Shown here: positions 32,850 to 50,449 of the stretch, one piece after another
Numbering within the stretch: the first letter of the stretch is position 1
Layout: each line of letters begins with the position of its first letter
Origin: Pseudophaeobacter arcticus DSM 23566
Lineage (GTDB): Bacteria > Pseudomonadota > Alphaproteobacteria > Rhodobacterales > Rhodobacteraceae
DNA: 64,000 nucleotides
Reading direction: 5' to 3'
Assembly: GCF_000473205.1 (NCBI RefSeq)
Contig: NZ_AXBF01000006.1
Span: forward strand, 124,001 to 188,000
Notes under the pieces: model-generated
What the model saw: only the letters and a program-made list of their open reading frames with translations
The model's database searches: none
What the model was told of the DNA's origin: nothing
Made by a program: the position numbers and the translations under genes

Positions 32850-35102
32850 TTAATGGAGCGGTTTGCCGGTCCGAAGCATGTGGCCAATCCGCGCAAGCGT
32901 TTCAGGCGTCGCGACCAGCGCCATGAACACCTCGCTCTCAAGAGCAGCCAGATCGGCCTCCGACGTCCCTGCCCCTCCTGCGGCGAAAATCTCGGCAATG
33001 CGCGACTGAAGCGCAAAAGCGTTCGGCGTAATCCGCCCATCGTCTCGGGCAGTTTCGCGCTCCGACAACAACCCGCTCAGAACCGCCTGCCGATCCAGAC
33101 GCAATGTCACCACCTCTTGCGCGCCCTGCCTCGGCTCCAATGTGTCGAGATGCGCAAGGGCTGCGGCAAAGACATCGTCGTCACGCATGACCACCGGTTG
33201 AGACGGATCCAACAAAGCCAAATCCCCCGCCTCACGCGCCGACCCAGCGGGGGCCTCAAGTGTGGCCGCGTGAAAGGCCCTCGTGATCCGGTCCGACAAA
33301 TCCGCCTCGTGCGATGCTGTGGCGCGGGCTCGGTCCAACAGTCGCCGACATCCGCCCCAGCCCGGCACCAGACCGACAAGATGTTCGGGCAGACCGATCC
33401 GCGTCTCGGCATGGGCCACTGTGCCCGTGCAATGCATCGCCAACTCGCACCCACCGCCAAGCGCCAGCCCGTGCATCGCGGCGACGCTGGGCGTGTGGGC
33501 CGTCCGCAGGGCGGCGAGAACCATTTGCCCGCGCGTGATGAAGGCCTCGATCGCCGCCCATTTTCCGCCCTCGATCCACGCCACCACCTTTGACAGATCG
33601 GCACCTGCGGAGAACACCCGCGGATTGTGATTGCCGACAACCATCCCGCGCGCAGCGCCGTTCAAGCGGCTCACCCCCTCTTCGAGAATGTCGAAGACCG
33701 CGGGGGCAAGGGCGTGCATTTTGCTCCGAATATCCAAGCAGATCACATCATCGCCCAGATCCCAAAGCGCTGCAGAGGAATTTTGGGCCAGTGCTTGGCC
33801 TGCGGCCTGTGCCCGGCTCAGCCGGTCCGCCTCGCCACTCCGCACGACCGGAGTCGCCAGCGCCTCGAACGGCACGCCTTCGGGCATCTGCGCCCGCAGA
33901 CGCGCCTGCGTTTCAGGGCTCAGCTCCCGCCACAACGCTACCGGTCCCGCGCGCCAAGCATAGCCCAACTCCATCCCGAGATCCGTCTCCTTGAGCGAGG
34001 GCGCAATCTCACCCGCGTGGATCAAAGCATAGTCCACCACCTGCGCCAGAACCGCCCGCGCATAGGCCCCAGAGGCCGTGTCATTATTCAACAAAAGATC
34101 GAGATCGCGCCCCGCCCCCGGCAGGTCTTTCTGCGCGAACCCGCTATGCGCACGATACACGCCGGAGTTCAGGTCAAGCGCCTCCAACGCACCGCTCTCG
34201 GACTTACGGTAAAACCCGGCACGGCTTTTGCGCCCGAACCGCCCGGCAGAAACAAGATCCGTAATTACCCCCTGCCCCGGCAGATCGAACGCATTGATCG
34301 CGTCCGTCCGGGGCAGCGCCGCCATCAACGAGCCCCAGATGGGTTTGACGACATCAAGCCCGACCAAATCCAGCAGGCCGAAGACGCCCGTGCGCGGCAC
34401 GCCAAAGGCCATGTGCACCGCATCTGCCTCCTCGACCGTCAGCCCAAGCCGCAACGCCTCGACCACCGCCACCGAAAGCCAGGTACAGCCCAGTCGGTTG
34501 GCGATGAAACCCGGCGTGTCGCGGCATTCGATCACGGTTTTGCCAAGCGCCTTTCGCCCAATCTCGGCAGCGCGGTCGAACGCCACCCGGTCCTCAGATC
34601 CGATCAGTTCCAATAGTGCCATGCGCCGGGGCGGGTTGAAGAAATGGCTGATCAAGAAATGATCCTGAAACGCCGCACCGCGCCCTTCGATCAGCCGTCC
34701 GCGCAGAATGGTCGAGGTGTTGGAGGAGACAATCGCATCGGGTTTGCGCAAAGGCTCGATCCGTTCGTAAAGTGCACGTTTTAGGTCGAGGTCTTCAAGG
34801 ATGGCTTCGACGATCCAATCCGCCTCCGCCACACGTTCCAGATGGTCCTCGGTATTGCCGACCCGCACCAGGCTGACGGGCGCCTCCCCCATGAACGCCT
34901 GTCGCGCGATCTGTTGCGCAAGGCCTCGTTCAGCGGGCGCATCTCGCACCCCATCCGGCCCCGCCCGATCCAGCAGATCGACGGCAATCCCCGCATTGGC
35001 AAACTGCGCTGCGATCCCGCCGCCCATATTTCCCGCGCCGATCACCGCTACGCGCCGGCATCCCAAATCCTCGACCCCGAAGGCCGTCTTGATCGTGCTC
35101 AT
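32850..35102 (-). CDS. fadN: Bifunctional 3-hydroxyacyl-CoA dehydrogenase/enoyl-CoA hydratase, FadN type
   Basis: Beta-oxidation enzyme of 750 residues. The order is dehydrogenase first and hydratase last, as in Bacillus FadN and opposite to E. coli FadB. The NAD site is RVAVIGAGNMGGGIAAQFANAG. Dehydrogenase motifs include SSNTSTI, HFFNPPRRMALLELI, CRDTPGFIANRLG and GRFGRKSRAGFY. The hydratase part holds FSAGADLSKV, HGLALGGGCELAMHCTG (first Glu) and RIGLPEHLVGLVPGWGG (second Glu). The C terminus TLARIGHMLRTGKPLH is complete although the IS30 end lies 7 bp past the stop. ATG 35102 follows GGAG. It is the last gene of the leftward alk/fad run and completes the chain shortening of alkane-derived acyl-CoA. 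Confidence 0.9.
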   Translation of the reverse strand: MSTIKTAFGVEDLGCRRVAVIGAGNMGGGIAAQFANAGIAVDLLDRAGPDGVRDAPAERGLAQQIARQAFMGEAPVSLVRVGNTEDHLERVAEADWIVEAILEDLDLKRALYERIEPLRKPDAIVSSNTSTILRGRLIEGRGAAFQDHFLISHFFNPPRRMALLELIGSEDRVAFDRAAEIGRKALGKTVIECRDTPGFIANRLGCTWLSVAVVEALRLGLTVEEADAVHMAFGVPRTGVFGLLDLVGLDVVKPIWGSLMAALPRTDAINAFDLPGQGVITDLVSAGRFGRKSRAGFYRKSESGALEALDLNSGVYRAHSGFAQKDLPGAGRDLDLLLNNDTASGAYARAVLAQVVDYALIHAGEIAPSLKETDLGMELGYAWRAGPVALWRELSPETQARLRAQMPEGVPFEALATPVVRSGEADRLSRAQAAGQALAQNSSAALWDLGDDVICLDIRSKMHALAPAVFDILEEGVSRLNGAARGMVVGNHNPRVFSAGADLSKVVAWIEGGKWAAIEAFITRGQMVLAALRTAHTPSVAAMHGLALGGGCELAMHCTGTVAHAETRIGLPEHLVGLVPGWGGCRRLLDRARATASHEADLSDRITRAFHAATLEAPAGSAREAGDLALLDPSQPVVMRDDDVFAAALAHLDTLEPRQGAQEVVTLRLDRQAVLSGLLSERETARDDGRITPNAFALQSRIAEIFAAGGAGTSEADLAALESEVFMALVATPETLARIGHMLRTGKPLH

Positions 35103-35160
35103 GATATCTCCAGACTTCACTATGTGTTGGCGTGGGCGAAGATACCCGCGCCGAAGGACC

Positions 35161-36948
35161 TCAGATCGCGAGGTCGAAATCCGCCGCCGTCAGCGCAAGC
35201 GTCGCGCCATTGCCAGTCTTGGAAATCGCATGAAGTGCCGCCGCCATGGGGAAGACATTTGAGGCATAGAACCGCACCATGCTCAGCTTGGCCTTTGCAT
35301 GGGTCGTGTTGCGCCCTTCTGCAAGACGCTTGGACGCCGAAATTGCGGCATCGCCCATCACCCAGGCGCCGAGGCAAATCCCAAAAGCCTCAAGGATATT
35401 GACAGCTGCCGACAGGGGCTCCGTACCGTTTTGCGCCACTAGCCAGTCGGTCAGATCGCCGACGATTCCGGCAGCCTCTTCGACCATCGCGCTCAGTCCG
35501 GACCAATCGGCGTCCCCGCCGCTCTGCGTCTTCAGCCCCTCGGCGGTCGCATTCATCTCGGCGATCAGCTCGCGCGCGGCGGTGCCGTTGTCGCGTTTGA
35601 TCTTGCGGCCCACTAGGTCGAGCGCCTGAATGCCGGTCGTGCCCTCGTATATCGTGGTGATCCGCGCATCCCGCAGGTGCTGCGCAGCGCCCGTTTCCTC
35701 AATATAGCCCATGCCACCATGGATTTGGACGCCCAAAGATGCCACATGCACCGATAGTTCCGTTGACCAGGCTTTCACCACCGGAATCAAAAGATCTACG
35801 CGCCGCTGATGGTGCGCACGAGTCTTGTCTTCCTCTGCGCGATGCGCAAAATCCAGAGACCGCGCCGCGCGAAATGCCAAAGCCCTTGCCGCTTCAGTCC
35901 GCGCTTTCATCAGGCCCAGCATCCGGCGAATATCCGGGTGTCCCATAATGGCCGCTTCCGCGCCCTCGGGCGTGCCGCCCTGCACACGGTCCATCGCGTA
36001 GCGCACCGCATGTTGCGTGGCCGCCTCGGAAATACCGACACCTTGCAGGCCCACGCCCAAACGCGCGTTATTCATCATGGTGAACATGTACTGAAGCCCT
36101 TTGTTGGGCTCACCCACCAGATAGCCGATGGCACCGCCCTCATCGCCATAAGACATGGTGCAGGTCGGACTGGCGTGAATGCCCAGTTTATGTTCAATCG
36201 ACACACAACGCAGGTCATTGCGCAACCCCGGAGTGCCCTCGGCATCGGGAATAAATTTCGGCACAATGAAAAGCGAAATTCCTTTGACGCCTGCGGGCGC
36301 ATCTGGCAGGCGCGCGAGCACGAGATGGATGATGTTTTCCGCCAGGTCATGTTCGCCATAGGTAATGAAAATTTTCTGCCCGCTGATCCGGTAGTGATCC
36401 CCCTCCGGCACCGCTTTCGTGCGGATAGCGGCCAGATCAGACCCGGCCTGCGGTTCAGTCAAGTTCATCGTCCCGGTCCATTCCCCGGTCACGAGTTTCG
36501 GCAGGTAGAGCGTTTTGAGATCATCGGAGGCATAGCCGTTGATCGCCTCAATCGCGCCCTGGGTCAAAAGCGGACAGAGCTGAAACGCCGTGTTCGCGCC
36601 ATTGAACATTTCGATAATGGCGGCGTTCACCACCTCCGGCAGGCCCATTCCTCCGTGATCCGGCGCCGCCGTGGGCGCGTTCCAACCCATCTCGACCAGC
36701 GTGTCATAGGCGACACGCCAGCCTTCCGGTGTCGTCACCTGCCCCATGGCAAAACCGAGCCCAGCCTGATCGCCCGCAGCGTTGAGCGGTCCGAGCACAT
36801 CGCCTGCAAATTTCCCCGCCTCTTCGAGGATCGCTCCCACTATGTCGGGACTGGCTTCCTCAAGCCCGGGTAGTTGCGAAATTTCGTCCAGCCCGCAAAG
36901 TTCTTCAAGGACGAACATCATTTCTTCTGTTGGCGCAACATAGGTCAT
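35161..36948 (-). CDS. Long acyl-CoA dehydrogenase (FadE5-like, ~595 residues)
   Basis: Acyl-CoA dehydrogenase of 595 residues, about 200 longer than the short-chain enzymes in region 1. It has the extended N terminus (TYVAPTEEMMFVLEELCGL) and C-terminal domain typical of the group acting on medium and long chains. Motifs: MNLTEPQAGSDLAAIRT, RISGQKIFITYGEHDLAENI, CTMSYGDEGGAIGYLVGEPNKGLQYMF, and QIHGGMGYIEETGAAQHLRDARI. It introduces the first double bond and reduces ETF. It lies 18 bp after the ETF chimera. With thiolase and FadN it forms the same enzyme set as the Bacillus fadNAE operon. Confidence 0.9.
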   Translation of the reverse strand: MTYVAPTEEMMFVLEELCGLDEISQLPGLEEASPDIVGAILEEAGKFAGDVLGPLNAAGDQAGLGFAMGQVTTPEGWRVAYDTLVEMGWNAPTAAPDHGGMGLPEVVNAAIIEMFNGANTAFQLCPLLTQGAIEAINGYASDDLKTLYLPKLVTGEWTGTMNLTEPQAGSDLAAIRTKAVPEGDHYRISGQKIFITYGEHDLAENIIHLVLARLPDAPAGVKGISLFIVPKFIPDAEGTPGLRNDLRCVSIEHKLGIHASPTCTMSYGDEGGAIGYLVGEPNKGLQYMFTMMNNARLGVGLQGVGISEAATQHAVRYAMDRVQGGTPEGAEAAIMGHPDIRRMLGLMKARTEAARALAFRAARSLDFAHRAEEDKTRAHHQRRVDLLIPVVKAWSTELSVHVASLGVQIHGGMGYIEETGAAQHLRDARITTIYEGTTGIQALDLVGRKIKRDNGTAARELIAEMNATAEGLKTQSGGDADWSGLSAMVEEAAGIVGDLTDWLVAQNGTEPLSAAVNILEAFGICLGAWVMGDAAISASKRLAEGRNTTHAKAKLSMVRFYASNVFPMAAALHAISKTGNGATLALTAADFDLAI

Positions 36949-36966
36949 TGCCTCAATTCCTTTTTA

Positions 36967-37266
36967 TCACAGTTTCTCAGTCAATTCCGGGACAACATCA
37001 AACAGATCTGCGACGAGGCCGAAGTCCGCGCCCATGGCCAAAGCGTTGCGAATAGTGTCGGTGGTTTTCTTTTCACCTATGGACACGATCACCACCTCGG
37101 AAGCCACACCGGCTTCTTTCATACGGATCGCCTCTTCGACAGAAATCTCGTCGAACGGGTTCATCGACATCTTCACATTGGCAAGATCGACACCCGTGCC
37201 GTCCGCCTTAACCTTGACCTTAACGTTGTAATCAATCACCCGTTTGACGGGAACGAGCACCTTCAT
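36967..37266 (-). pseudogene. etfB-etfA fusion remnant (deletion chimera)
   Basis: A 99-residue frame whose first ~80 residues are the N terminus of electron-transfer flavoprotein beta ([46 protein letters not shown]). Its last ~19 residues, [18 protein letters not shown], are the C terminus of ETF alpha. A deletion from inside etfB to the end of an adjacent etfA gives exactly this in-frame joint. The AMP site, most of beta and nearly all of alpha with its FAD site are lost, so it cannot carry electrons. The ATG and ribosome site are kept, so a short peptide could still be made. Electrons from the dehydrogenase must use ETF encoded elsewhere. Confidence 0.85.
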
Positions 37267-37289
37267 GGGTCTATTCCTTTCTTCAAGGG

Positions 37290-37555
37290 TCAGCGGGTTG
37301 GAACGGGAATCGTGTCCTCGCCGCGAAAATCGTAAAATCCGAGTTTGGTCCTTTGTCCGAGCCAGCCGACTTCGACGTATTTCACCAATAGCGGACAGGG
37401 TCGGTATTTGCTGTAGGCGAGCCCGTCGTTAAGCACGCCCATGGAGAGTCCGGGGCCGATGATCAAGTTCGATCCCATCAGCTGACTGAGCTGGGTGATC
37501 GGCGCGGCCAGAACAACCCTGTAGCCATCGACAAGCGTGTTCAAAAGCGGCACGT
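37290..37555 (-). pseudogene. 3-hydroxybutyryl-CoA dehydrogenase C-terminal remnant
   Basis: The last ~40 codons, [20 protein letters not shown] then [17 protein letters not shown] and IPVPTR, match the C terminus of short-chain 3-hydroxyacyl-CoA dehydrogenases (Hbd/PaaH). Upstream of this a weakly similar part (VPLLNTLVDG, MGSNLIIGP) seems shortened by an internal deletion of about 12 residues. The Rossmann NAD domain is absent. It lies between the thiolase and the ETF chimera, in the order hbd-etfB-etfA, suggesting that a once longer operon was eroded. No product function is expected. Confidence 0.7.
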
Positions 37556-38743
37556 TTACGTCGAAGGCCTGATAGCTTCCAGAGCAACCGCGATGCCCTG
37601 CCCACCACCAATGCACATGGTTGCCAGAGCCCGTTTCAAACCTGTACGCTCTAGCTCGTAGAGCGCCTTTAGAAAGATTATAACCCCCGATGCCCCGATC
37701 GGGTGTCCAAGTGCTATTGCGCCACCATTGGGATTCACCTTGTTATTGTCCAAACCAAGAGTCTTGCTCACAGCTAGAGCTTGCGCCGCGAAAGCCTCAT
37801 TCGACTCGATCACATCAAAATCTGAAATTGTCAGTCCTGTTCTCTTTAGAAGACCTGATACCGCTGGAATTGGCCCAATCCCCATGATGTCCGGACGCAC
37901 GCCTGCTATATGATAGCCGAGCAGCCTTGCTCGCGGTTTCAATCTCGCTCTGGCTGCAGTATCTGCAGTCGCTAATACAACTGCGGCGGCCCCGTCATTT
38001 AGGCCCGAAGCATTTCCCGCCGTGACTGTACCATCCTTCTGGAAGGCTGGGCGCAGGTTTCCAAGCGATTCCAGTGTACTTGCCTTAGGATGTTCATCAG
38101 TATCAAAAGACACCATGTTGCGTTTGCCCTTCACCTCGACGGGAACAATCTGGGATTTGAAATACCCGTTATTGATCGCGTTCAGGGCGCGCTCCTGACT
38201 TTGCAGTGCAAACTCGTCTTGAGCCTCGCGGGTAATTGCATATTCTAAGGCAACATTTTCCGCCGTGACCCCCATATGCCCTGTGCCAAACGGACAATTG
38301 AGTGCGCCGAGCATCATGTCGGTTGCACCAGTGTCGCCCATTTTTTGCCCCCAGCGGATGGCCGGCATGATATACGGCGAGCGGCTCATGCTTTCGCTGC
38401 CACCGGCAAGTGCTATGGCCGCATCTCCCTGAATCAACGACTGCGCCGCAGACACGATGGCTTGAAGCCCAGAACCGCAGAGCCGGTTTACGTTCATTGC
38501 GGGCGCTTCTTCTGGCACTCCGGACCCAATTGCGACCGCGCGGCTAAGATACATATCACGCGGCTCAGTATTAATAACATGACCAAACACCACATTTTCA
38601 ATTTGCCTGCCATCAATGCCAGAGCGAGCAATCGCCTCCTTCGCCACGATCTCCCCAAGCTCGATAGGCGACGTGTTGGCAAGAGCCCCTCCAAAGGTTC
38701 CGATGGCTGTTCGCGCACCGTCCAATACTACGATATCTTTCAT
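37556..38743 (-). CDS. fadA: Acetyl-CoA acyltransferase (thiolase)
   Basis: Thiolase of 395 residues. The nucleophilic Cys lies in NVNRLCGSGLQAIVSA near residue 89. The C-terminal motifs are PNGGAIALGHPIGASG (His) and ATMCIGGGQGIAVALE (second Cys). Also visible: AGGSESMSRSPYIMP and TAGNASGLNDGAAAVVLA. It releases acetyl-CoA from 3-oxoacyl-CoA; whether it prefers long chains or acetoacetyl-CoA is not visible. It follows alkL by 143 bp on the same strand. Its codon use is noticeably more AT-rich than fadN, suggesting a different origin. It overlaps nothing, but the hbd remnant begins right after its stop. Confidence 0.88.
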   Translation of the reverse strand: MKDIVVLDGARTAIGTFGGALANTSPIELGEIVAKEAIARSGIDGRQIENVVFGHVINTEPRDMYLSRAVAIGSGVPEEAPAMNVNRLCGSGLQAIVSAAQSLIQGDAAIALAGGSESMSRSPYIMPAIRWGQKMGDTGATDMMLGALNCPFGTGHMGVTAENVALEYAITREAQDEFALQSQERALNAINNGYFKSQIVPVEVKGKRNMVSFDTDEHPKASTLESLGNLRPAFQKDGTVTAGNASGLNDGAAAVVLATADTAARARLKPRARLLGYHIAGVRPDIMGIGPIPAVSGLLKRTGLTISDFDVIESNEAFAAQALAVSKTLGLDNNKVNPNGGAIALGHPIGASGVIIFLKALYELERTGLKRALATMCIGGGQGIAVALEAIRPST

Positions 38744-38886
38744 TTTTTCACCGTTGCTTCGTTCTGCATCAAGAAGACCGCGTTGGTCCGTTGCCCAGTA
38801 CAGAAATCATTTTTCAAGAAGTTCGGAAGTAAATGTTCCGAGGCGCGACACGCGCGCTCCGGGTTACTTCCGTCAGAAACGAGACC

Positions 38887-39573
38887 CTAGAACCGGTAGG
38901 CAACACCGATATTCAAGATTGTTGGGTCCACCGAAACCTTGCCTCTGACCGGTGCCCCGCCGAGTGTCCCAGAGATATCTGTTTCGAATGGCGTGTAACG
39001 TATATCGGCATTAGCAAACCAATTATCGCTCATTTGATAGCGCATTCCAACTTGGAGAGCAGGCGCCCAAGCGTCTTTCAAGTCGAAGTCCGCAAGTGCA
39101 TCCCCTTGTTCTTCCAGAAACAAGATTCGAGCGATACCGGCACCAACATAAGGGCTAACGGATGAATTAGTCGGAAAGTGATATTGAAGCGACAAGATGG
39201 CAGGGCCGTATTTTGTCTCTCCGACGGTCATCCCCCCCAAGCTGCCGGTTCCTGTAAGATCGGCGGTTGCAGGAAAACCACCAAAAAAATTCAATGCCAA
39301 AGATGAATTCAAGAAATAAGAAACATCGAAACTCAGTGTGGTGTCATCGGAGATATCGATACCAGACCCCGGTATTGGCGCACCGCCCGCGCTGATTGAA
39401 TCCAACGTTTCGTTCGTGAATACTTTCGCCGCATTCAGGCCAAAAAGCCAGTCGCCTTTGGAGTAAAGCGGTTCCGCATTTGCGACGCTGAACGACGAAA
39501 AGCAACCAAGCATCGTGATTAACACAAACTTCGAGGCAAAAGGCCCCTTGGATTTTACATTAGATTGTTTCAT
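38887..39573 (-). CDS. alkL: Outer-membrane protein AlkL (OmpW family)
   Basis: OmpW-family eight-stranded beta barrel, 228 residues. The signal peptide is about 33 residues (hydrophobic FVLITMLGCFSS, probable cut after SVANA). Features: GDWLFGLNAAKVFTNE, an extended N-terminal region, SPYVGAGIARILF, DNWFANADIRYTPFETDI, and the terminal aromatic residue in NIGVAYRF. AlkL is known to pass long alkanes through the outer membrane of P. putida GPo1. It lies directly after alkK as in that operon. Its GC content looks lower than the surrounding fad genes. Confidence 0.9.
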   Translation of the reverse strand: MKQSNVKSKGPFASKFVLITMLGCFSSFSVANAEPLYSKGDWLFGLNAAKVFTNETLDSISAGGAPIPGSGIDISDDTTLSFDVSYFLNSSLALNFFGGFPATADLTGTGSLGGMTVGETKYGPAILSLQYHFPTNSSVSPYVGAGIARILFLEEQGDALADFDLKDAWAPALQVGMRYQMSDNWFANADIRYTPFETDISGTLGGAPVRGKVSVDPTILNIGVAYRF

Positions 39574-39666: not shown

Positions 39667-41289
39667 CTACGCCAGAAGCACGTCTCCATATGCTTCCCGC
39701 AGCTTGTTCTTCAGCACTTTGCCAGTTGCGTTTCGTGGAAGTTCATCCACAAAAACGACCGCATCCGGGATCTGCCATTTGGCGACTTTGTCGGAGAAGA
39801 AGGAAATCACATCCTTCTCTGACACTTTTGCCCCTGGTGCCTTGACAGCGACAAGGACCGGCCGTTCGTCCCATTTTACATGCTTCGCCGCAATTGCGGC
39901 GGCATCTGCAATACCGGGATGAGCGACCGCGATTCCTTCAAGTTCGACGGTGGAAATCCATTCCCCGCCCGATTTGATGATGTCCTTGGAGCGGTCTCGA
40001 ATCGTCATGAACCCATCGGCATCAATCGAGGCCACATCGCCGGTTTCAAACCATCCATCGGATTCCAAAGTCGTACCCGGTTCCGCACCGAAATAGCTGT
40101 CTACGACCCAATGGCCGCGAATGCGAAGATTGCCTTGCGCCGCCCCATCCTCGGGAAGTGTACTGCCTTCATCGTCGACGATCTTGAGTTCCACGCCATA
40201 GGGCGGGCGGCCCTGGCTTTCGCGCACTTTGGCCTGTTCTTCCTTGGTCATGCCCGCATGGCGTTCCAGCAAGGCATTCGCGGTCCCGAGAGGCGAGGTT
40301 TCGGTCATGCCCCAAGCGTGCACGACTTCGGTGCCATATTTGTCGCGGAATTCGGCGATCATCGAAGGCGGGCAGGCCGATCCGCCGACCACCGTCCGTG
40401 TGAGGGTCTCGGCTTTGGAGCCGAGTTTGTCGAGCGATGCGAGAAGCCCCTGCCAGATTGTAGGAACACCAAGCGCGACCGTCACGCCTTCGTCGTCGAT
40501 CAGCCGTGCGAGGCTGTCACCGTCAAGCCCCGGACCGGGCAGGACCAGTTTTGCGCCGACCATCGCGGCGGCATAGGGGATGCCCCAGGCATTAACGTGG
40601 AACATCGGAACCACCGGCATCATCACTTCGCGCGCTGAAATATTCAGCGTATCGGGAAGGGCCGCGCCCAAGGAATGCAACACCGTAGAGCGGTGCGAAT
40701 AAAGAACGCCCTTGGGATTACCCGTGGTGCCGGAGGTATAGCAAAGGCTGGAGGCGTCATTCTCGTCGACATCCACCCAATCGGCGTTTTCGTCCCCCGT
40801 GGCCAGGAAGTCCTCGTAGAATATAAGTCCGGGGATCTTGCTGGCTGCCTTTTCGTCACGCGCGGACATGAGAACGAAGGTGTCGACCGTCGTCAGGTTT
40901 TCCCTGATCCCTTCGATGATCGGCAGGAACGTCTTGTCAAAAAAGATGACCCGGTCTTCCGCGTGGTTGATGATATAGACAAGCTGTTCGGGGAAGAGGC
41001 GTGGATTGATCGTGTGGCACACCATTCCACCGCAGGAAATGCCGAAGTAGCATTCCAGATGCCGCGCGTTGTTCCACGCGATCGTCGCCACGCGATCCCC
41101 TTGGAAGAGCCCCAGCTTTGTCAGCGCGGAGCCGAGCTGACGGGCTCTATCCGAAATCCCTTTCCAGTTCGTCTTTGTCTTTGTGCCATCTGTTTCCACC
41201 GACACAATCTCGGTGTTGCCATGATAGCGAGCGCCGTGATCAATGAGTGAGTGTATTGTGAGGGGCATCGCCATCATTTGTCCGCGCAT
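39667..41289 (-). CDS. alkK: Medium-chain acyl-CoA synthetase AlkK
   Basis: AMP-forming fatty-acid CoA ligase of 540 residues. ATP motif [20 protein letters not shown] near residue 180, [27 protein letters not shown], and the C-terminal [19 protein letters not shown] and [20 protein letters not shown]. The start MRGQMM corresponds to the GPo1 AlkK start, so I kept 41289. It activates alkanoic acids made by AlkB, AlkJ and AlkH to acyl-CoA for the adjacent beta-oxidation enzymes. It is separated from alkJ by 150 bp that holds a strong stem-loop, and from alkL by 93 bp. Confidence 0.93.
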
Positions 41290-41439: not shown

Positions 41440-43068
41440 TTAGGCAACAGACCGGCTCCTGTCAAAAATACGCACCTGCCCCAGAATGATCTCGGCCGCA
41501 TTCTCAGCGATGACCATGGTCGGGGCGTTGGTGTTTCCAGCGACAAGGCTTGGCATGATGGATGCGTCCACCACTCGCAGCCCAGATACACCGCGAACCT
41601 TAAGCTCGGGGTCGACCACAGAATCCTTGTCCGCACCCATTCGGCATGTACCAACCGGATGATAGATTGTTTCTGCGCTTTCCCGAATGAATGCCGCGAT
41701 CTCATCGTCGGTCTGTACAGATTTACCGGGGTGCACTTCGTATTTGCTGTGCGCAGACATTGCCGGCGCTTCGAGTATCCTGCGCCCAGCTTTGAAGGCT
41801 GCAATCATCGTTCCCATATCTTCCGGATCGCTAAGATAATTCGGCTGAATCAGAGGATCGTCCATCGGATCCGGGCTTTTGAGGCCGATATAGCCGCGGC
41901 TCTTGGGCAAAAGATCGCAGATGTGAAGCGTATAGCCATAACCAAAAGCGATCTTGCGGCCATGATCTTTCAGATATGTGGGCAGGAAGTGAAACTGAAC
42001 ATTCGGCCTATCGCGTTCAGGGGACGACTTAATGAACCCACCGCTTTCCGCAACATTTGACGTGAGAAACCCTTTACGTCTGAAGATGTAGGAAAACAAA
42101 CCACCAATGCCACGCGGCAGAAAGCTGGGCGCGACACCGATCGGGCGCCGTGAGCTAGCAGCATGCATAATCGTTACATCGAGGTGGTCGGCCATGTTCT
42201 TGCCAACCTCGGGAAGGTCGTGAACGACGGCTAGACCATGCCGTTTAATTTCTTGGGCATCCCCGATACCCGACAGAAGGAGGAGTTGAGGCGAATTCAC
42301 GGCCCCGCCGGACAGGATCACTTCGCCGCCGGCATTGAGACGCAGTTGGCGATATTCGCCACTTTGCTGTAAGGTGACACCGGTTGCCGTCTTTTCCTCC
42401 ATGACAACGCGGGTCACGCGGGCGTCGGTGAAAATCTCAAGGTTGGACCGGGCCTCAGCCCCGCGCAGGAAAGCTTGCGCCGAGCTCCAACGCCGACCAT
42501 CCTTTTGCGTGACCTGATACATGCCCAGGCCCTCTTGTTCGGCGCTGTTGAAATCGCCGTTGTGGGGGATCTGCAGTTCGCGCCCAGCCTGTACGAAATC
42601 ACGGCTCAGAGGGTTCACGGTTTTCAGCTCACTCACGGAGAGCTCGCCGCCCCTACCGTGGGTTTCGGTTGCACCGAACCGATGGTTGTCTTCGATGCGC
42701 TTGAACAGGTCGGTCATGCGGTCCCAGCCCCAGACATCCGTGCCTGCCTCGGACGCCCAGTAGTCGTAATCGGCCTTGTGGCCACGAATATAGACCATGG
42801 CGTTGATGGACGACGACCCGCCCAGCGTCTTGCCGCGTGGCCAGAACAGTTTGCGGCCATTCAGGTGCTCTTGCGGTTCGGTGTCGAATGCCCAGTTCAG
42901 CTTTTTGCTGTTGGCCAGCAAGGCGATCCCCAATGGCATGTGGATCAGGGGGCTCTTGTCCTTTGGGCCTGCTTCGATAAGCGCGACGCGTTTTGCCGGG
43001 TTTGCCGACAGCCGGTTGGCCAGAACGCAACCAGCGGATCCGGCGCCGACGATGATATAGTCGTACAT
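41440..43068 (-). CDS. alkJ: Alcohol dehydrogenase AlkJ (GMC family, FAD)
   Basis: Membrane-associated FAD alcohol dehydrogenase, 542 residues. FAD-binding [20 protein letters not shown] at the N terminus; GMC signature [21 protein letters not shown] near residue 80; second signature [18 protein letters not shown]-terminal catalytic His region [13 protein letters not shown] and [20 protein letters not shown]. Long stretches match GPo1 AlkJ in layout and motif. It oxidises medium-chain 1-alkanols to aldehydes, passing electrons to the quinone pool. It begins 31 bp after alkH. Confidence 0.94.
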
Positions 43069-43099: not shown

Positions 43100-44545
43100 T
43101 TATCCAAGCACCCGGACCACGATGTTGATAAGACGGCGTACAAAGCCCGTGTAAGGCGGGAAAAGCATATGCGTGATCGAATGCTTTTCCTCCAGAACGG
43201 CTTTTTCATGGGAAAAGGCCTTGAAGCCGTGTTCGCCATGGGCCGACCCAATGCCGGAGTTGTTGACGCCGCCAAATGGAAGGTTCGGGTGCAGGAAATG
43301 CACCACTGTAAGGTTTACGCCCACCGCGCCCGAAGAGGTGCGCGTGATGATCTGATCAGCGAAGCCCTTGCTTTTGTCGAAGATATACAGGGCAAGCGGC
43401 TTGGGGTTTGCGTTGATCTTGTCGATAACTTTATCCAGATCGACATATTCGATGATCGGCAAGATCGGCCCAAACAGTTCTTCGTGAGTGATTTCCATAT
43501 CGTCCGAAACCTCGGAGATCAGCGTCGGGGCAACGAAATTCTGGGCCGCGTCTGTCTGCCCGCCCTGAAGGATGCTTGCGCCTTTGGCACGGGCATCCTC
43601 GATCAGGTTGCGAACCCTGTCAAAGTGACGTTCGTTCACAATCCGGCAATAGTCGGGCGTTGCTTTTTGAGCCTCGGGCGTCTTTCCATAGACCCGGCCG
43701 ATCTCGGCCTGAAGCGCAGCCTTGAACGCAGTCGAAACATCGCGATGTACATACACATGATCCGGTGCGATACAGGTCTGACCGTTGTTTGCGAACTTAC
43801 CCCAGACGATGTTGCGCGCGGCCTTCTTGATATTGGCGTTGGGCCCGACGATTGTGGGCGACTTACCACCAAGTTCCAGAGTGACCGATGTCAGGTTTTT
43901 TGCCGCCGCCTCCATCACGACCTTGCCGATTGCCGGGCTGCCCGTGAAGAAAATGTGGTCAAACGGAAGCGACAGTAGCTCTTGGGAAACCGTGGCGTCG
44001 CCTTCGATGACCCTGACCAGATCCGGTGTGAACGCCTCTTCCACGATGTCGATGATGACACGGGACGCATTTGGCGTCATTTCTGACGGCTTGATGATGG
44101 CACTGTTGCCGGCCGCGATTGCCGAAACCAGCGGCCCGAGCGAAAGATTCACTGGATAGTTCCAGGGCGCGATGATCAGGCACACACCCTTGGCCTCGGG
44201 GCGAACCCGTGCCTTGGTGCCAAACACCCCCAAAGTGGCGCGCGCCCGTTTGGGGCGCATCCACGACTTCAAATGGTGTTTGGTGTGCCGGATTTCCTGA
44301 AGCACAGGGAAGATCTCGGTCAGTTTCACTTCTTCGGCGGGTTTGCGAAAATCAGCGGCGCAAGCCGCGATGATTTTGTCCTCGTTCCGTTTGACGGCCT
44401 CTGCTAGGCGGTCCAGCTGTGCAATGCGTGCCTTGCGGTCAAAACTGGCACGCCGGGCAAGTTGTGCCCGAATCTGGGTGTCAAACGCCGCTCGGATGTC
44501 ATCGGCACTGGCTGTTTTTGCGTGAAATGATGCAACCTGATTCAT
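43100..44545 (-). CDS. alkH: Aldehyde dehydrogenase AlkH
   Basis: Membrane-anchored type aldehyde dehydrogenase, 481 residues from ATG 44545 (GGAG upstream; the longer open frame overlaps alkG in a different frame). Motifs: [29 protein letters not shown], the catalytic Glu in [13 protein letters not shown] and catalytic Cys in [15 protein letters not shown]. The C-terminal hydrophobic stretch [21 protein letters not shown] could anchor it to the membrane. It converts medium-chain aldehydes to acids. It starts 10 bp after the alkG stop. Confidence 0.92.
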
Positions 44546-44555
44546 GTTCACGCTC

Positions 44556-45026
44556 CTACTTCTCTTCGTAGAGGACATAGTCCTCTTTCGTGGCGCCACA
44601 GTCCGGACAGCACCAATCATCGGGGATCTGACTGAACAGAGTTCCCGGCGGGAAACCTTCGTGTTCGTCGCCAAGGGCTTCGTCGTAGATATGACCGCAT
44701 GTTATGCAAAGCCATTTCCGGTAGGTGGTTCCGGCGGCGGGGGCCGCCTGTGCCACCGGAGCAGGCGCTTGCGGTGCGGCGGCAGGAGCGTCAACCGCCA
44801 CGGGTTCGGGTGCCGGGGCCGGAGCGAGTGTCGGTGCCGGGGTTGGTGCTAGCGCTGCGGCTTCGCCGATCAGCACAAAGTCCTCTTTGTCGCGGACCGC
44901 GCAATCGGGGCACGAAAAGTCTTCGGGCACTTGTGACCACGGCGTTCCCGGCGGGAACCCCTCATGCGGGTGGCCCTGGATTTCATCGTAGGTGTAACCG
45001 CAATCCGGGCATTGATATTTAGCCAT
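44556..45026 (-). CDS. alkG: Two-domain rubredoxin AlkG
   Basis: Electron carrier of 156 residues with two rubredoxin domains. The first covers 1-52 with [10 protein letters not shown]...CPDCAVRDK. The second covers ~103-156 with [14 protein letters not shown]...[19 protein letters not shown] low-complexity Ala/Pro linker (residues ~56-98) joins them. The last 20 residues match GPo1 AlkG as I recall it. Rubredoxin passes electrons from AlkT to the di-iron centre of AlkB. The single-domain alkF gene found between alkB and alkG in GPo1 is absent; the 170-bp gap to alkB holds no rubredoxin frame. Confidence 0.93.
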
Positions 45027-45199
45027 TGTTCATTCCTCCCTTACACACGTGCGTTGACAGGCAAGCACATGCGTCGTTCCAGATTTTCTGTCGGTTGTGT
45101 CTGCGGCCCCGTCATCGAGTGAGAGCAAGGGGCTGTTTGTCAGGTCAGTGTTGGCCCCATCGGGGCCAACTCCTTAGTCTGAGGCGCCATGCGAGGGTT

Positions 45200-46411
45200 T
45201 TATTCGGCAGGCATGGCGGCAGGTTGCGCAGGTGCGACCGACCCGAATTTACGGTCATAGTACTCACGCATGCCAGGCTCGATCTGAATCTTGTTCAGGT
45301 CACCTTTGGCCCAGTCCAAGACACGATGATCCATGATCGATCGGAACCACGAGGGGACCAGCGCCGCAAAGAACATCCCGGGATAGCCCGAAGGAAGCGC
45401 AGGCAGATCCTTGAAGTCGCGCAGCGATTGATAGGACCGCGTCGGGTGCGCGTGGTGGTCCGAGTGCCGCTGCAGGTGGAACAGGATCAGGTTGGACATG
45501 ATATGGTTCGAGTTCCACGAATGGTGCGGCTTCTGATGCTCGTATTTGCCGTTGGGCAGTTTTTCGCGCAGCAGGCCATAGTGTTCGATATAGTTGGCCG
45601 AGGTCAGCTGCCACCATCCGTACGCCATCTGAATGGGCAGGAACACAAGCATGATCGGCCCGAAGAATGCCAGCAGTCCGGCGTAAAGAACGACGGTAAT
45701 GATCAGCGGCTGAAGGATCTCGTTGTCCAGGCTCCAGACACTCTTGCCACTCCGCTCAAGGCGAACTTCTTCGAGCTCCCAGGCGCGTTTGAAGGCACCG
45801 GGGATTTCGCGGGTTGCGAAAGAATAGATGTTTTCACCCATACGCGATGTTGCCGGATCTTTCGGGGTCGCCACGTCGCGGTGGTGCCCTTTGTTATGCT
45901 CGATGAAAAAGTGGCCATAGCCCACGACTGCCAGCACCAGTTTGGCCATCCAGCGGTCAAATGTTTCTTTCTTGTGGCCCAGTTCATGGCCGGTGTTCAG
46001 TGCCAAACCGTTGACGATACCCAGCGACAGTGCAAGCGCAATGAACTCAAAGGCATTGACCGATTGGGTTGCCACCCACCAGCAGGATCCGACAAGAGCC
46101 GCATAGTGCATGGGCACGGTCAGATAAGTGAGCACGCGATAGTAGCGGTCTTTTTCAAGATCAGGCACGGCCGACTCGGGGGGATTCGAGAAATCCTCTC
46201 CGAACATCGCGTCCAGCAGCGGTACCGCCAGATACCACAGAATCAAGACCGTTCCGTACCAGATGCTCCATCCGGTTTCCGAGACCAGGTAAAGTCCGAT
46301 CAGCGGCGTTGCCGGCCAGAATACGGACAAAATCCAAAAATACCGTTTCTTATCAACGTATGCTTCAGTGGCGCCGGCTTCTGCCGCGGCCGTTTCGTTC
46401 AAATCCTTCAT
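45200..46411 (-). CDS. alkB: Alkane 1-monooxygenase AlkB
   Basis: Integral-membrane non-haem di-iron hydroxylase, 403 residues from ATG 46411 (good GGGAGG site; upstream extension dropped). His motifs: HELGHKKE (142-149), EHNKGHHRD (171-179), LQRHSDHHA (313-321), plus the AlkB-specific NYIEHYGL (273-280). About six hydrophobic helices. A Trp at residue 59 (LILWYLAVPLLD) matches the bulky residue (W55 in GPo1) that limits substrate length to medium chains. It hydroxylates terminal carbons of n-alkanes using O2 and rubredoxin. Near-collinear with GPo1 AlkB throughout. Transcribed divergently from alkS. Confidence 0.96.
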   Translation of the reverse strand: MKDLNETAAAEAGATEAYVDKKRYFWILSVFWPATPLIGLYLVSETGWSIWYGTVLILWYLAVPLLDAMFGEDFSNPPESAVPDLEKDRYYRVLTYLTVPMHYAALVGSCWWVATQSVNAFEFIALALSLGIVNGLALNTGHELGHKKETFDRWMAKLVLAVVGYGHFFIEHNKGHHRDVATPKDPATSRMGENIYSFATREIPGAFKRAWELEEVRLERSGKSVWSLDNEILQPLIITVVLYAGLLAFFGPIMLVFLPIQMAYGWWQLTSANYIEHYGLLREKLPNGKYEHQKPHHSWNSNHIMSNLILFHLQRHSDHHAHPTRSYQSLRDFKDLPALPSGYPGMFFAALVPSWFRSIMDHRVLDWAKGDLNKIQIEPGMREYYDRKFGSVAPAQPAAMPAE

Positions 46412-46532
46412 CAGTCTGTTCCTCCCTGAAAGGCTGTCACTTGGCCATACGGTGGTCAGAAGCATGATTGCATTGCTTCCTCCTGCCGACTGACGCTGAG
46501 ACGGCAAAATCCTCACAGACAGGCCAGCTAAC

Positions 46533-46552
46533 AACTACACGTTCGTGTAGTT
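46533..46552. promoter_or_regulatory. Perfect inverted repeat in alkB-alkS intergenic region
   Basis: AACTACACGTTCGTGTAGTT: 9-bp perfect arms with a 2-nt centre, 121 bp before the alkB start and 66 bp before the alkS start. It is the only strong palindrome in the gap and the best candidate for an AlkS site. Binding is inferred. Confidence 0.6.
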
Positions 46553-46618
46553 TTGAGTTTCGCGTGCTATAGTTATGGAGTCGGGACACCAACGATACAT
46601 CGCTTCGGGGAGGGAGGG

Positions 46619-49234
46619 ATGACAACGCCCTCCAGAGCAAACCCAGACGACATTTCGGGCTTTCTGAAACGGATGAATACCCGTCGCACAAAGTATTCTC
46701 AGGGTTGTCTAAAGCGCGACAGGCTGAGTTTTACAGGAAACCCGACGGCCAAGTGTCTTCTTTACAAAGCGCCTCCCGGCTTTGGCAAGTCGGTCCAGGT
46801 CGCCCAGTGCGCCCAAGCCGCGCTCGAAAGAAACGAAGACTGCATCTACCTGGATTTTTCGTCTTTCTGGCCAAAAGACCTATCTGAAACCGATTTGATT
46901 GCGAATTCGATTGTCGCGGCGCTTTCCTCCGAAGGATTCTCCGAGAAAACGACCACGAGTAGTGTGAATATCCTCGCGCTGCGCCTGCTCACGGATCATG
47001 AAAGACCCGTCACGATCTGCCTGGATGGCGTAGCAGACGCTGCCACTACGCAAAGGTTTCTGAGAACGATCACACTGGAAACGCCGGAAACCGTTCGATT
47101 GGTCATAAGCGAAGGCTTGCCCGACGCGACGGTCTCTCTGTCGGTCCTCTCGGATGTCGTTACGATCGGCCCGGACGATTTGGGTTTCACCCTCGATGAG
47201 ACTGGCTTGTTTCTGTCACTGGACGCAGACCAGGCAAAGAGAGTGTTCGATTTGACGGGCGGCTGGCCGCTTCTGTGCGCGCTGGCGGGAAAATCAAATA
47301 CCCCAGGCGTAGGCATCGCCCATCTGCCCGAGGTTCAAGCCTATTTCGAAAACGATGTGCTGGCGCAGGTGCCGCAACCGCTCCGCGATTGCCTGATGAA
47401 AGCCAGCTGGCTGGAAGAAATCAATGAAGATGTCTGCAACTACGTGTTCAAGACGGACGCTGCAGGCCTTAAACTGGCTAAACTTGAATCGCACTATCGC
47501 CTTTTGGCGTCCAGCACTGCAACGCCAAACCGCTATGAAATGAACCGGGCGCTGAAAGAGTATCTGCGCAATCGTTTCATAGAGGCAAACGGATCGCGCC
47601 AGTCGTATTTCCTGAAACGTATCGCATTCTGGCATTGGCGAAGAAGAGAATACCGCTTGGTCATTAAAGTGGCCCTGCGGGCCCAAGATCATAATTGGGC
47701 CCAACGTCTGGGCGAACAAGCTCTGCTGGACCTTGCCCTGAGGCAGGGAGAGATCGAGGCCTTGATAACTTGGTTCACCGGCATTCCTCGGTTCAAATTA
47801 ATCCAGACACCATCCTTGGCCATCGGATATGCTTGGGTGCTGTACTTCGGCCAACGTGCTCAGGAAGCTCAAGAGGTGCTGGACAGACTGAACGTCTTGC
47901 CAGCTTCAGATCCCGCGAAACAGGACGACCCGAATGGATGGGGGGAACTGGTCCACGCCATTGGTCTGGCCACACATGATGAAATGAAAGAAAGCGATGA
48001 AGGCTGCACTGCATGGGTTGACACCTATGGGTTGGTCAACCCCGTCGGGCAGGCGGCTGCACAGACCTGCAGAGCCTTCATTGCCGCCTCTGACAGGCAG
48101 TTCACTATCCTCTCGGATCAAATCGCCACGGCCACGGTCACAAGCGGAGCAGTCCGTCACCGCTATGCTTTTGGCTGGCTTGCTGCGGCCGGTATCCTGG
48201 CCAGACTGCTCAATGGCGACATTTATGGCGCGCGCGCCGAAATCCGACGGGCACAGAAAGATGAAAACGTCGCCCACGAGCGCACGCCGTTTGTCAAAGG
48301 AATGTTCACCTCCTTCGAATTTCAGGTCCAGGCAGAAGACGGATCAATCACACCTGACGACGGCCTCCTGCATGAGGCTCTCGATTTCGCGCTGGCATTC
48401 GGGGTGACGGATGTGGTGTGGAACACGGTTCGAAGCGCGGTCGAGGTATATATTCGCCGAGGTGACACATCCCGGGCCTTCTTGTTGCTGGAACGCTGCC
48501 GCCTTACGGCAAACGAGCGCGGCTTGAAGCGGTTGGGTATCCTGATTCGGTTGGGTACCGAAGTCTTTGCCATGGGATCCCGAACGAGTACCTCGCTCGG
48601 GATCGGACCTCTCCCATCGGACGAAGACTTGGTCTTCTTGCCAAACCAAAATCGCGCTATTCGAGCGGAACGTGAGTTGCTCGAAGCCTCAAGGTTTCTG
48701 CGTGACGGGAAACTGGGTCTGGCCGAGAGGCAGGCGCGAAAAGCTTTGACAAACTTTGCCGCCATCAGGGACCAACGCGGTGAGATCAGGGCGCAATGTA
48801 CGCTTGCGGCCACTATCCATCTGATGGGCGACGAGAAGCAGGCAATAAAAAGAATGGTCGATGCCAATCTGCAAGCACAACAACTGGGTGCATTCAGGTC
48901 TTTGGAAAACAGGCGGCATTTTCTGAGGGTCATCAGCCCAACAGCAAAAGCGTTCCTGGGTCAAAAGGCAGACCAAGTTTCGATTGCCGGAAAAACGGCG
49001 CATGAACTGACGATCTCTAAGCTCCCCGCTGCACATATATCTGCCCCGATCAGCCGAAAGCAAATCGGGGTTTTGCAGCATGCGGCACTCGGGTTGAGCA
49101 ACAAGGAAATTGCAGCGCGCCTGCATGTCACGGAAGACACTGTGAAATGGCATTTCCGGAGAATCTTATCCTCCCTAAATGCCAGCAACCGTACCGAGGC
49201 CGTGTTAATCGCACGCTCGAAAGGCCTCATTTAA
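46619..49234 (+). CDS. alkS: AlkS, MalT/LuxR-type alkane-responsive activator
   Basis: Large regulator of 871 residues from ATG 46619 (GGGAGGGAG just upstream). Order: P-loop KAPPGFGKS near 50-58, NTPase region with CLDGVAD, winged-helix and TPR-like repeats in the middle, and a C-terminal LuxR helix-turn-helix (LSNKEIAARLHVTEDTVKWHF, SSLNASNRTEAVLIA). This is the layout of MalT and AlkS, which switch on the alk promoter when alkanes are present. The gene is divergent from alkB and 33 bp upstream of alkT; in GPo1 alkST lie apart from the alkB operon. The early ATG at 46553 overlaps the palindrome and is not favoured. Confidence 0.9.
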   Translation: MTTPSRANPDDISGFLKRMNTRRTKYSQGCLKRDRLSFTGNPTAKCLLYKAPPGFGKSVQVAQCAQAALERNEDCIYLDFSSFWPKDLSETDLIANSIVAALSSEGFSEKTTTSSVNILALRLLTDHERPVTICLDGVADAATTQRFLRTITLETPETVRLVISEGLPDATVSLSVLSDVVTIGPDDLGFTLDETGLFLSLDADQAKRVFDLTGGWPLLCALAGKSNTPGVGIAHLPEVQAYFENDVLAQVPQPLRDCLMKASWLEEINEDVCNYVFKTDAAGLKLAKLESHYRLLASSTATPNRYEMNRALKEYLRNRFIEANGSRQSYFLKRIAFWHWRRREYRLVIKVALRAQDHNWAQRLGEQALLDLALRQGEIEALITWFTGIPRFKLIQTPSLAIGYAWVLYFGQRAQEAQEVLDRLNVLPASDPAKQDDPNGWGELVHAIGLATHDEMKESDEGCTAWVDTYGLVNPVGQAAAQTCRAFIAASDRQFTILSDQIATATVTSGAVRHRYAFGWLAAAGILARLLNGDIYGARAEIRRAQKDENVAHERTPFVKGMFTSFEFQVQAEDGSITPDDGLLHEALDFALAFGVTDVVWNTVRSAVEVYIRRGDTSRAFLLLERCRLTANERGLKRLGILIRLGTEVFAMGSRTSTSLGIGPLPSDEDLVFLPNQNRAIRAERELLEASRFLRDGKLGLAERQARKALTNFAAIRDQRGEIRAQCTLAATIHLMGDEKQAIKRMVDANLQAQQLGAFRSLENRRHFLRVISPTAKAFLGQKADQVSIAGKTAHELTISKLPAAHISAPISRKQIGVLQHAALGLSNKEIAARLHVTEDTVKWHFRRILSSLNASNRTEAVLIARSKGLI

Positions 49235-49267
49235 GAAGACTTCTATATACTCAGGGAGGAACGAAAA

Positions 49268-50449
49268 ATGGAAACAACCGTGATCATTGGCAATGGGGTC
49301 GCTGGGACGACTGCAGCCGCAACACTGCGCAGAAACGGCTACGAAGGCACCATTAAGCTGATAGGTGAAGAAGCGGCGCTCCCCTATCAACGCCCACCTC
49401 TGTCAAAGGCGTGGTTGCTGGATTCAGACAGACCGAAACCGACCCCTTTGCGGCCTCTTTCGTTCTATGAGTCTAACGGCATTGAACTGATGCGCGCGCG
49501 CAAGGTCGTCAAAATTGACAGGAACAAGCGTCGAATCCGCTTCTTGGATGGAAAAACAACGAAATTCGATAACTTGATCCTCGCAACGGGAGCAACGCCT
49601 CGCCGCCTCGATTTGGCGGGGGCCGATCTTAAAGGGATTCACTATCTAAGAGATTTGAGAGATTCTGCAGGACTCCGCCAAGCACTGAATCGCCCAGGCT
49701 GCCACGACGTCGTTATCGTCGGTGCCGGTGTGATCGGACTCGAGGTGGCCTCTGCCGCAATTGATAGTGGAAAGGCCGTCACGATCATAGAGGTTGGTGG
49801 ACGAGCAATGGCTCGCGTTGCCTCTCCGGCAGCGACAAACTTCATCACTGAAAAGCTATCAGATGCTGGGGTGCGTTTCATGTTCAACAAGCGTCTCGAA
49901 GAGTTTGGCGCTGCTAATCAACATGTTTCTTCCATTAACCTTGAAAACGGAATAGAGATTAAGGTCGATCTTGTCTTGGTGAGTATTGGAGCGACGCCGA
50001 ATATAACCTTAGCCCAGGACGCGGGCTTGGTTTGTGACAATGGAATCTGTGTGGATCAGGACATGCGGACATCCGACCCCAAGATTTTCGCGATTGGTGA
50101 TTGCGCGCGCGGTGACAACGCGTTCGTGTCGGGAAAGCCGCGCATTGAAACTGTCCATAACGCATCCTCCCAGGCACAAATCGCAGCAGCTACTATCTGC
50201 AATAAAACACGCCCAGCTCCCGTACCACCACGATTTTGGTCCGACCTCAAAGGCATGAAGGTTCAAGCCATAGGAATAGCGGCCGGTTACGATCTGGTAC
50301 GACGCGTTCCAACCCAGCCTCCGACGTCATTGGAGGTGCACCTAAAATACCGCGACCGTCTTGTTGCAGCCGAGGTTATAAACCTTCCCCATCGTCAAGG
50401 CGAACTGGTTAAAGAGATTTCTCCCGTATCATTTTCAGATACAAAGTAA
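49268..50449 (+). CDS. alkT: Rubredoxin reductase AlkT
   Basis: FAD/NADH-dependent rubredoxin reductase, 393 residues. The FAD motif VIIGNGVAGTTAAATLRRNG is at the start, with ATGATPRRLDL. The NADH motif VVIVGAGVIGLEVASAAIDSG lies near residue 150, and the second FAD motif KIFAIGDCARGDNAFVSG near 275. A C-terminal dimer/oxidoreductase domain follows. It transfers electrons from NADH to the rubredoxin AlkG and so to AlkB. It follows alkS closely in one operon. Base composition is more AT-rich than the secretion genes to the right. Confidence 0.93.
   Translation: METTVIIGNGVAGTTAAATLRRNGYEGTIKLIGEEAALPYQRPPLSKAWLLDSDRPKPTPLRPLSFYESNGIELMRARKVVKIDRNKRRIRFLDGKTTKFDNLILATGATPRRLDLAGADLKGIHYLRDLRDSAGLRQALNRPGCHDVVIVGAGVIGLEVASAAIDSGKAVTIIEVGGRAMARVASPAATNFITEKLSDAGVRFMFNKRLEEFGAANQHVSSINLENGIEIKVDLVLVSIGATPNITLAQDAGLVCDNGICVDQDMRTSDPKIFAIGDCARGDNAFVSGKPRIETVHNASSQAQIAAATICNKTRPAPVPPRFWSDLKGMKVQAIGIAAGYDLVRRVPTQPPTSLEVHLKYRDRLVAAEVINLPHRQGELVKEISPVSFSDTK

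Follow-up and report, generated by a model that had tools for sequence, protein, structure and literature searches.

A probable AlkS-regulated alkane degradation island carried on a Roseobacter virB plasmid

Is the alkane gene set of Pseudophaeobacter arcticus DSM 23566 an import from the Pseudomonas OCT plasmid, or is it cargo of a different type that moves among roseobacters? The genes lie on contig C3 (203,324 bp) in a 64,000-nucleotide stretch referred to here as the window (G000:C3:124001-188000); coordinates are those of the window unless a contig or another locus is named. They comprise alkBGHJKL, the adjacent alkST and a fadA-fadE-fadN tail. We consider it highly probable that they form an AlkS-regulated island for n-alkane degradation, which belongs to the marine clustered-alk type and is cargo of a Roseobacter plasmid equipped with a virB transfer operon.

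Anatomy and type of the alk unit

Open reading frames (ORFs) and family searches confirmed the gene content and order given by the initial annotation, every named alk and fad gene being an open frame with family matches. On the reverse strand lie alkB (45200..46411; PF00487, with the alkane 1-monooxygenase 8sbb as best PDB sequence match and a placement in the tree described below); alkG, encoding a two-domain rubredoxin (44556..45026; PF00301 in two stretches); alkH, an aldehyde dehydrogenase (43100..44545; PF00171); alkJ, a GMC-type alcohol dehydrogenase (41440..43068; PF00732, PF05199); alkK, an acyl-CoA ligase (39667..41289; PF00501); and alkL, an OmpW-family outer-membrane protein (38887..39573; PF03922). 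The same strand continues into fadA, a BktB-like thiolase (37556..38743; PF00108, PF02803, and NF006552 above its cut-off), a fadE-like acyl-CoA dehydrogenase gene (35161..36948; PF00441, PF02770, PF12806) and a fadN-like gene for a fused 3-hydroxyacyl-CoA dehydrogenase and enoyl-CoA hydratase (32850..35120; PF02737, PF00725, PF16113). Divergently, on the forward strand, follow alkS, for a MalT/LuxR-type regulator (46619..49234; PF00196 and a MalT-like match), and alkT, for a rubredoxin reductase (49268..50449; PF07992, PF14759). The alkB and alkS frames of the ORF list start upstream of the likely ATG. The residue number that we assume for the chain-length tryptophan of AlkB does not fit the Alcanivorax entry. 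GC content was not decisive (49–62% for the alk genes, 60.9% for the contig). No alkF lies in the 173 bp between alkB and alkG, and no alkN was seen between the named genes, where no search with an alkN reference was made. Since alkG, alkH and alkJ all lie within 10 kb of alkB, the unit is a clustered alk system as defined by Wang et al. 2022 (PMC9526415).

The initial annotation had matched this set to the Pseudomonas one in order and sequence, reading it as an OCT-type island that had lost alkF and moved alkST. The first part holds for gene order and enzymes but fails for the regulator: against Pseudomonas sp. 7-41, which has an alkF-bearing plasmid cluster and stands in for GPo1 in this comparison, identities were 77% for AlkB, 71% for AlkJ, 70% for AlkK and 68% for AlkH, then 52% for AlkG, 50% for AlkL, 45% for AlkT and 30% for AlkS. 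AlkB was placed in a tree built from 51 rows by a quick method; 13 of its 39 inner branches are starred. The window protein falls in a starred clade of 20 rows, in which 10 Rhodobacterales and 8 Hyphomonadales are joined by a single Hoeflea and a single gammaproteobacterial metagenome-assembled genome (MAG). The neighbouring starred branch is Marinobacter plus Alcanivorax, and a starred clade of 33 rows unites the window with both, so that its AlkB groups with the clustered AlkBs of Marinobacter and alphaproteobacteria and with Alcanivorax AlkB. Pseudomonas-type AlkB (L009, L052 and L053; Pseudomonas 7-41, P. taeanensis and Halopseudomonas, with GPo1 itself not among the rows) forms its own starred branch outside the 33-row clade. 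Concatenated AlkHJ and AlkST trees (28 rows each) agree with one another that the closest kin of the window are Phaeobacter sp. G2 and Mesobacterium, followed by the pair 22II1-1F12B and 22II-s10i (the 22II genomes); AlkS and AlkT have diverged far more than the enzymes.

The supposed rearrangement fares no better. Divergent alkTS and alkB without alkF is also the order of Marinobacter plasmids, and it recurs in those loci of Rhodobacterales and Hyphomonadales that were found to hold alkB, alkS and alkT; in the available parts of the survey by Wang et al., alkF and alkN are nearly confined to Pseudomonas, and alkST occur with alkBGHJKL in Rhodobacterales (PMC9526415). A missing alkF and adjacent, divergent alkST are therefore normal for the marine clustered-alk type. 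Recent acquisition of the OCT/GPo1 island from Pseudomonas, followed by rearrangement, would account for the shared alkB-G-H-J-K-L order and the similar regulator and operator type, but the separate Pseudomonas branch of the AlkB tree, the divergence of AlkS and AlkT, the widely shared alkF-free order and a difference in operator number make it extremely unlikely; we reject an OCT origin on the AlkB tree and the AlkS divergence. What the island shares with P. putida GPo1 alkBFGHJKL/alkST is the pathway, the regulator family and the operator type, while it differs in lacking alkF, in its adjacent and divergent alkST and in its single operator. Closer in AlkB is Alcanivorax borkumensis alkSB1GHJ (79% identical to the island protein; P0007), whose AlkS likewise has a binding site with a 20-bp inverted repeat; unlike the island, that cluster is listed, in the parts of PMC8784404 available, with no adjacent alkT, alkK, alkL or beta-oxidation tail.

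Two roseobacter rows, plasmid pSMR1-4 and the MAG Roseobacter sp. HyVt-317, lie apart in the AlkB tree, with Bradyrhizobium and Afipia as their nearest neighbours (an unstarred placement with support 85), and their different position suggests that roseobacters acquired alk more than once. The AlkB proteins of these two are identical. Plasmid pSMR1-4 (L006; Pseudosulfitobacter, typed conjugative) carries this other clustered alk lineage with no annotated alkL and with a thiolase beyond alkT. On a Marinobacter plasmid (L007 20262-25003), the alk cluster is followed by a cytochrome P450, ferredoxin, reductase and dehydrogenase set, perhaps a second alkane-oxidizing system.

Regulation was approached through the alkB–alkS intergenic region. 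The most conserved block in an alignment of 16 such sequences is a perfect palindrome of AlkS type, AACTACAC-N4-GTGTAGTT (46533..46552), for which 100 shuffles of the window gave an expectation of 0. With up to three mismatches allowed, each of the 46 loci L011-L056 has it, and it is absent from all five loci whose sole AlkB find was a distant one (L057-L060 and L064); L062 had a single unconvincing site, L061, L063 and L066, which hold fragments, had sites and L065 had none. The P. arcticus genome holds one exact copy, plus a two-mismatch match that does not rise above a reversed-pattern control. Pseudomonas 7-41 has two sites, by position one before alkS and one before alkB, against one in the window. 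The window thus combines an AlkS regulator gene with an inverted repeat upstream of alkB, a putative AlkS operator common to both operons; this combination is a feature of studied clustered-alk members rather than part of the Wang et al. definition. GPo1 AlkS is described as acting via operators at PalkB and PalkS2, and as able to cross-activate Alcanivorax alkB1 (PMC8784404). Here, a single AlkS site would serve both divergent operons.

Near-identical copies in different genera

Over 14.8 kb (31300-46087), the window shows no differences to Mesobacterium pallidum T40-1 and two to plasmid CP104101 of Phaeobacter sp. G2, counts that leave out insertions in the other copy. Between P. arcticus and Mesobacterium, a stretch containing rpoB is 81.2% identical whereas the island, alkS included, is 99.0% identical, so horizontal spread between genera is well supported. 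For the 22II genomes, the island is 99.97% identical over 16,088 bases and the rpoB stretches 84.4%.

The distribution is patchy. At E<=1e-100, island AlkB was found in two of the 12 genomes of the genus, P. arcticus included, the second being G017, whose island coordinates equal those of CP104101 and which we take as G2. Among 394 sampled genomes of the family, it was found in four, again counting P. arcticus. A different AlkB-like gene, on contig C6, is present in all 12 genomes of the genus and its product is 37% identical to island AlkB. Neither descent from a vertically inherited alphaproteobacterial alkB lineage nor a fixed chromosomal place throughout the genus fits these observations, and the initial view of a horizontally moving alkane module is borne out. 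A second AlkB-like gene in P. arcticus (L005; G000:C1:117671-118693), also 37% identical to island AlkB at the protein level, has similar second copies in three other genomes of the genus; the frame adjoining it reads, by eye, as a putative cytochrome P450.

Could contaminated assemblies or shared cultures have produced the near-identity? The 22II genomes have sister strain names and, to guess from these, may come from one laboratory. G2, however, is a complete hybrid assembly of seven circular replicons with a genome GC content of 58.85% (PMC9872643), bounded patches of difference separate the copies of the window, G2 and Mesobacterium, and G017 has the C6 AlkB-like protein at 97% identity, short of a perfect match. 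The patches and the C6 protein mark these as different strains, and we regard an artefact as very unlikely.

A further question is what moves. As the initial annotation had stated, insertion sequences (ISs) and a conjugation operon lie beside the unit. The IS genes are on the left and the virB genes on the right. The left border (27875..32577) consists of IS remnants, namely IS66-type genes split by an IS5-type transposase, with IS30-type pieces on both sides. The island might thus be an IS-bounded element moving by itself, for which the plasmid is merely one carrier: IS genes abut fadN, the matches to the two 22II genomes end at 37331 and 51285, beside sequence that by eye resembles a transposase, and the match to a Sulfitobacter faviae plasmid, which keeps only fadA, alkL, alkK, alkJ and part of alkH, likewise ends at 37331, at an annotated transposase. 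In the window and in the copies of G2 and Mesobacterium, however, identity continues past the island into the virB and IS blocks, so a stretch longer than the island moved there, and blastn found no repeat between 32301-32900 and 50301-50800 (E<=1e-5). We therefore judge self-movement rather unlikely and prefer spread of the island with its plasmid.

The plasmid backbone and a putative cargo slot

Contig C3 is matched by CP104101 at 98.5% across 150 kb, with the differences concentrated in bounded patches of 4.5–17.5% divergence and single changes between them. C3 24267-34866 corresponds to the repB-repC end of CP104101 at 95.2–100% and the virB block is matched too, so that repABC and virB occur together, repA not being listed in the CP104101 gene table. 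C3 5368-10566 matches, at 89% at the DNA level, CP104101 28713-33935, a stretch that holds genes for a relaxase and a coupling protein. The unit had been called 'self-contained', which claims too much, as a larger catabolic plasmid has the island as one of its blocks. Conjugative RepABC plasmids of Dinoroseobacter shibae and syntenic Roseobacter plasmids similarly combine RepABC with virB and occur in, or were moved between, different genera, and cross-genus conjugation of roseobacter plasmids is known (PMC5513947, PMC4886583); the cargo of those plasmids is other, and the available text of the two papers names no alkane genes ('alkane' has no occurrence in that of PMC4886583).

Within the window, sharply bounded patches that are 4.5–11% divergent from CP104101 lie at 912-5390, 10120-11665, 46088-49315 and 56525-62379. 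Such patches suggest allele exchange between sister plasmids. The third is the sole divergent patch within the island and spans alkS and the start of alkB; in it, 144 differences from the window are common to G2 and Mesobacterium, and AlkS differs from that of G2 at 45 of 871 residues. The ratio of non-synonymous to synonymous substitution rates (dN/dS) for alkS is 0.27 against G2 and 0.39 against 22II, compared with 0.02–0.33 (some values resting on few changes) for seven other genes comparable with 22II. Relative to the 22II allele the patch is mosaic, the window resembling 22II at 46.0–46.9 kb and G2 doing so at 47.2–48.1 kb. Exchange of the alkS allele could retune which alkanes induce the pathway.

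To the right of alkT, the plasmid backbone resumes with a helix-turn-helix gene and the virB transfer block (50554..63358, forward strand). Sixty-eight plasmid records, G2's alk plasmid among them, match window 49900-52300. Among the 25 matches listed, all but that plasmid start at or to the right of about 50553, some 105 bp past alkT, and the right island edge, where homology to alk-free plasmids begins, lies at 50553..50572. The genes left of this edge were inspected in 18 of the 24 other plasmids, and in every one genes other than alk stand beside the same virB block. In eight of them these form an operon ending in a pcaF thiolase gene, headed, in the three with long enough flank, by a flavin adenine dinucleotide (FAD) oxidoreductase gene; tested in one plasmid (L126), this oxidoreductase matches a model for Baeyer-Villiger monooxygenases with a score short of the model's cut-off. 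Two plasmids carry a semialdehyde dehydrogenase, Glu-Leu dehydrogenase and FAD oxidoreductase set, and two a SagB and Glu-Leu dehydrogenase set. The remaining contents occur once each: aspartate ammonia-lyase with etfBA; a CoA ligase, ABC and TetR set; a Tni transposon; a GMC oxidoreductase with a hydrolase; a betaine-aldehyde dehydrogenase with an exporter; and an acyl-homoserine-lactone synthase, the last oriented away from virB, whereas the adjoining genes point toward virB in the other 17.

When the junctions of the window, Thalassovita taeanensis and 12 other plasmids were aligned, shared sequence started near TAGAATTCG in 10 of the 12; the edges shift with the type of cargo, by as much as tens of bases, and L135 and L137 do not fit. 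A single exact att-like site may lie at the slot; the 13-base motif occurs once in the window, against 0.8 expected by chance (two mismatches). In Thalassovita the alkT-to-virB junction is that of the window, the two being 82.9% identical across 19 kb, as far as the fetched stretch reaches, which indicates that the linkage of island and transfer block is old. The site resembles a slot for cargo more than it does a chance insertion. Tentatively, Roseobacter virB plasmids may share a conserved slot immediately upstream of the transfer block that exchanges whole substrate-use operons, with the alkane island as one of about ten contents. In the boldest form of this proposal, cargo expression would help to trigger transfer. 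A terminator-like hairpin just 3' of alkT (50479-50500; three such sites against 1.6 expected in the stretch scanned) weighs against simple read-through from alkT into virB.

Two further parts of the window were noted. An acyl-CoA, biotin carboxylase and lipid-transfer block (8000-22200) is 92–95% identical on several other roseobacter plasmids (e.g. Sulfitobacter, Marinovum, Sagittula and Roseovarius). The acyclic-isoprenoid gene AtuA, at about 6826-8148 with copies on contigs C2 and C6, was considered as an obligate partner of the island and rejected: it was found in only 11 of 16 genomes or records searched, some of these matches being partial and most lying on other contigs, and among the 16 it was not found in Thalassovita, the Marinobacter plasmid or pSMR1-4.

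The beta-oxidation tail and the proposed working

According to the initial annotation, the unit takes alkanes all the way to acetyl-CoA. It does have the enzyme genes, but its genes for electron-transfer flavoprotein are not intact. A reverse-strand frame of 99 codons (36967..37266) is an in-frame fusion, etfB'-'etfA, in which the beginning of EtfB runs on into the final part of EtfA. Since full-length etfB and etfA frames stand at that place, between fadA and fadE, in the unit of Thalassovita, the fusion is a deletion relic; etfB and etfA share a short similar stretch at the joint. Beside it, at about 37290..37555 on the same strand, lies a relic resembling the C-terminal end of 3-hydroxybutyryl-CoA dehydrogenase, the name given to the Rhizobium match here. 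Relatives of FadN (E<=1e-100) were found in four of 20 genomes or records searched, namely P. arcticus, G017, Mesobacterium and Thalassovita, with 100% identity in G2 and Mesobacterium and 54% in Thalassovita. Outside the window, C3 73895-75564 aligns at 79% to the etfBA of a pcaF operon, the corresponding G2 genes being annotated as complete; this etfBA-like stretch could supply the acyl-CoA dehydrogenase of the island.

Several observations count against a working, plasmid-borne island under AlkS control. With etfBA deleted and a dehydrogenase reduced to a piece, the tail is decaying. In the G2 copy, alkL is frameshifted by a one-base indel (L001 22038-22723) and annotated as two proteins; the copies of the window and Mesobacterium match over the full length. 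A Sphingopyxis plasmid locus (L010) has alkS and alkB yet no palindrome at three mismatches, which means that not every such locus has the operator. Contigs that are large and probably chromosomal carry some of the relatives (e.g. Oceanicaulis sp. HTCC2633, 3.17 Mb), and plasmids are therefore not the sole home of such clusters. PLSDB types the sister plasmid of G2 as mobilizable, not conjugative. Finally, the AlkB tree is a quick one in which 15 of 39 inner branches are left open and the outgroup branches are long. What the analysis itself shows is the anatomy, the conserved operator, the near-identical copies in different genera, the patchy distribution and the slot. Overall, the alkane island is real, is probably functional and sits on a plasmid that is probably transferable between cells.

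Its working, including enzyme activities, induction and transfer, is proposed here from the known functions of the protein families. AlkL would let alkanes pass the outer membrane, and AlkB would oxidize them to alcohols with electrons delivered by AlkT and the two-domain rubredoxin AlkG. AlkJ and AlkH would carry the alcohol to the fatty acid, which AlkK would activate to acyl-CoA, and FadE, FadN and FadA would shorten the acyl-CoA to yield acetyl-CoA. The electron-transfer flavoprotein for the FadE step would be encoded outside the unit, its own etfBA having been deleted. Alkane-loaded AlkS is predicted to bind the lone palindrome between the divergent operons and to switch on both. The unit would travel between genera with its plasmid and, in some lineages, would have been trimmed further by IS elements. 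Its place would be a slot, immediately upstream of the virB block, that holds other genes in other plasmids.

Much of this is of a known kind. Wang et al. surveyed 120 clusters in 117 alpha- and gammaproteobacterial genomes, five of them on plasmids and 91 on contigs or scaffolds, and such clusters are reported there from Rhodobacterales (PMC9526415). In gene set, absence of alkF, AlkB clade and nearby ISs, the island resembles the clustered alk systems of Marinobacter, Rhodobacterales and Hyphomonadales; unlike the surveyed systems, as far as the available text of that paper describes them, it has beta-oxidation genes appended, adjoins virB and recurs as near-identical DNA in two genera. Less expected findings are the apparent cargo slot, the exchange of the regulator allele and the decay of etfBA within the tail. 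Among the open-licence papers searched, judged by titles and opening abstract lines, we found none on this island on roseobacter plasmids or on the slot.

Three strains from two genera have this DNA with 0–2 differences across 14.8 kb, beside transfer genes, which argues for recent plasmid-borne spread among roseobacters. This contrasts with the conclusion in the available parts of the survey that such clusters spread little, and perhaps not mainly through plasmids (PMC9526415), and it makes the route by which alkane degradation spreads in marine bacteria directly testable. The slot beside virB, in turn, is a place to seek other catabolic cargo in roseobacters.

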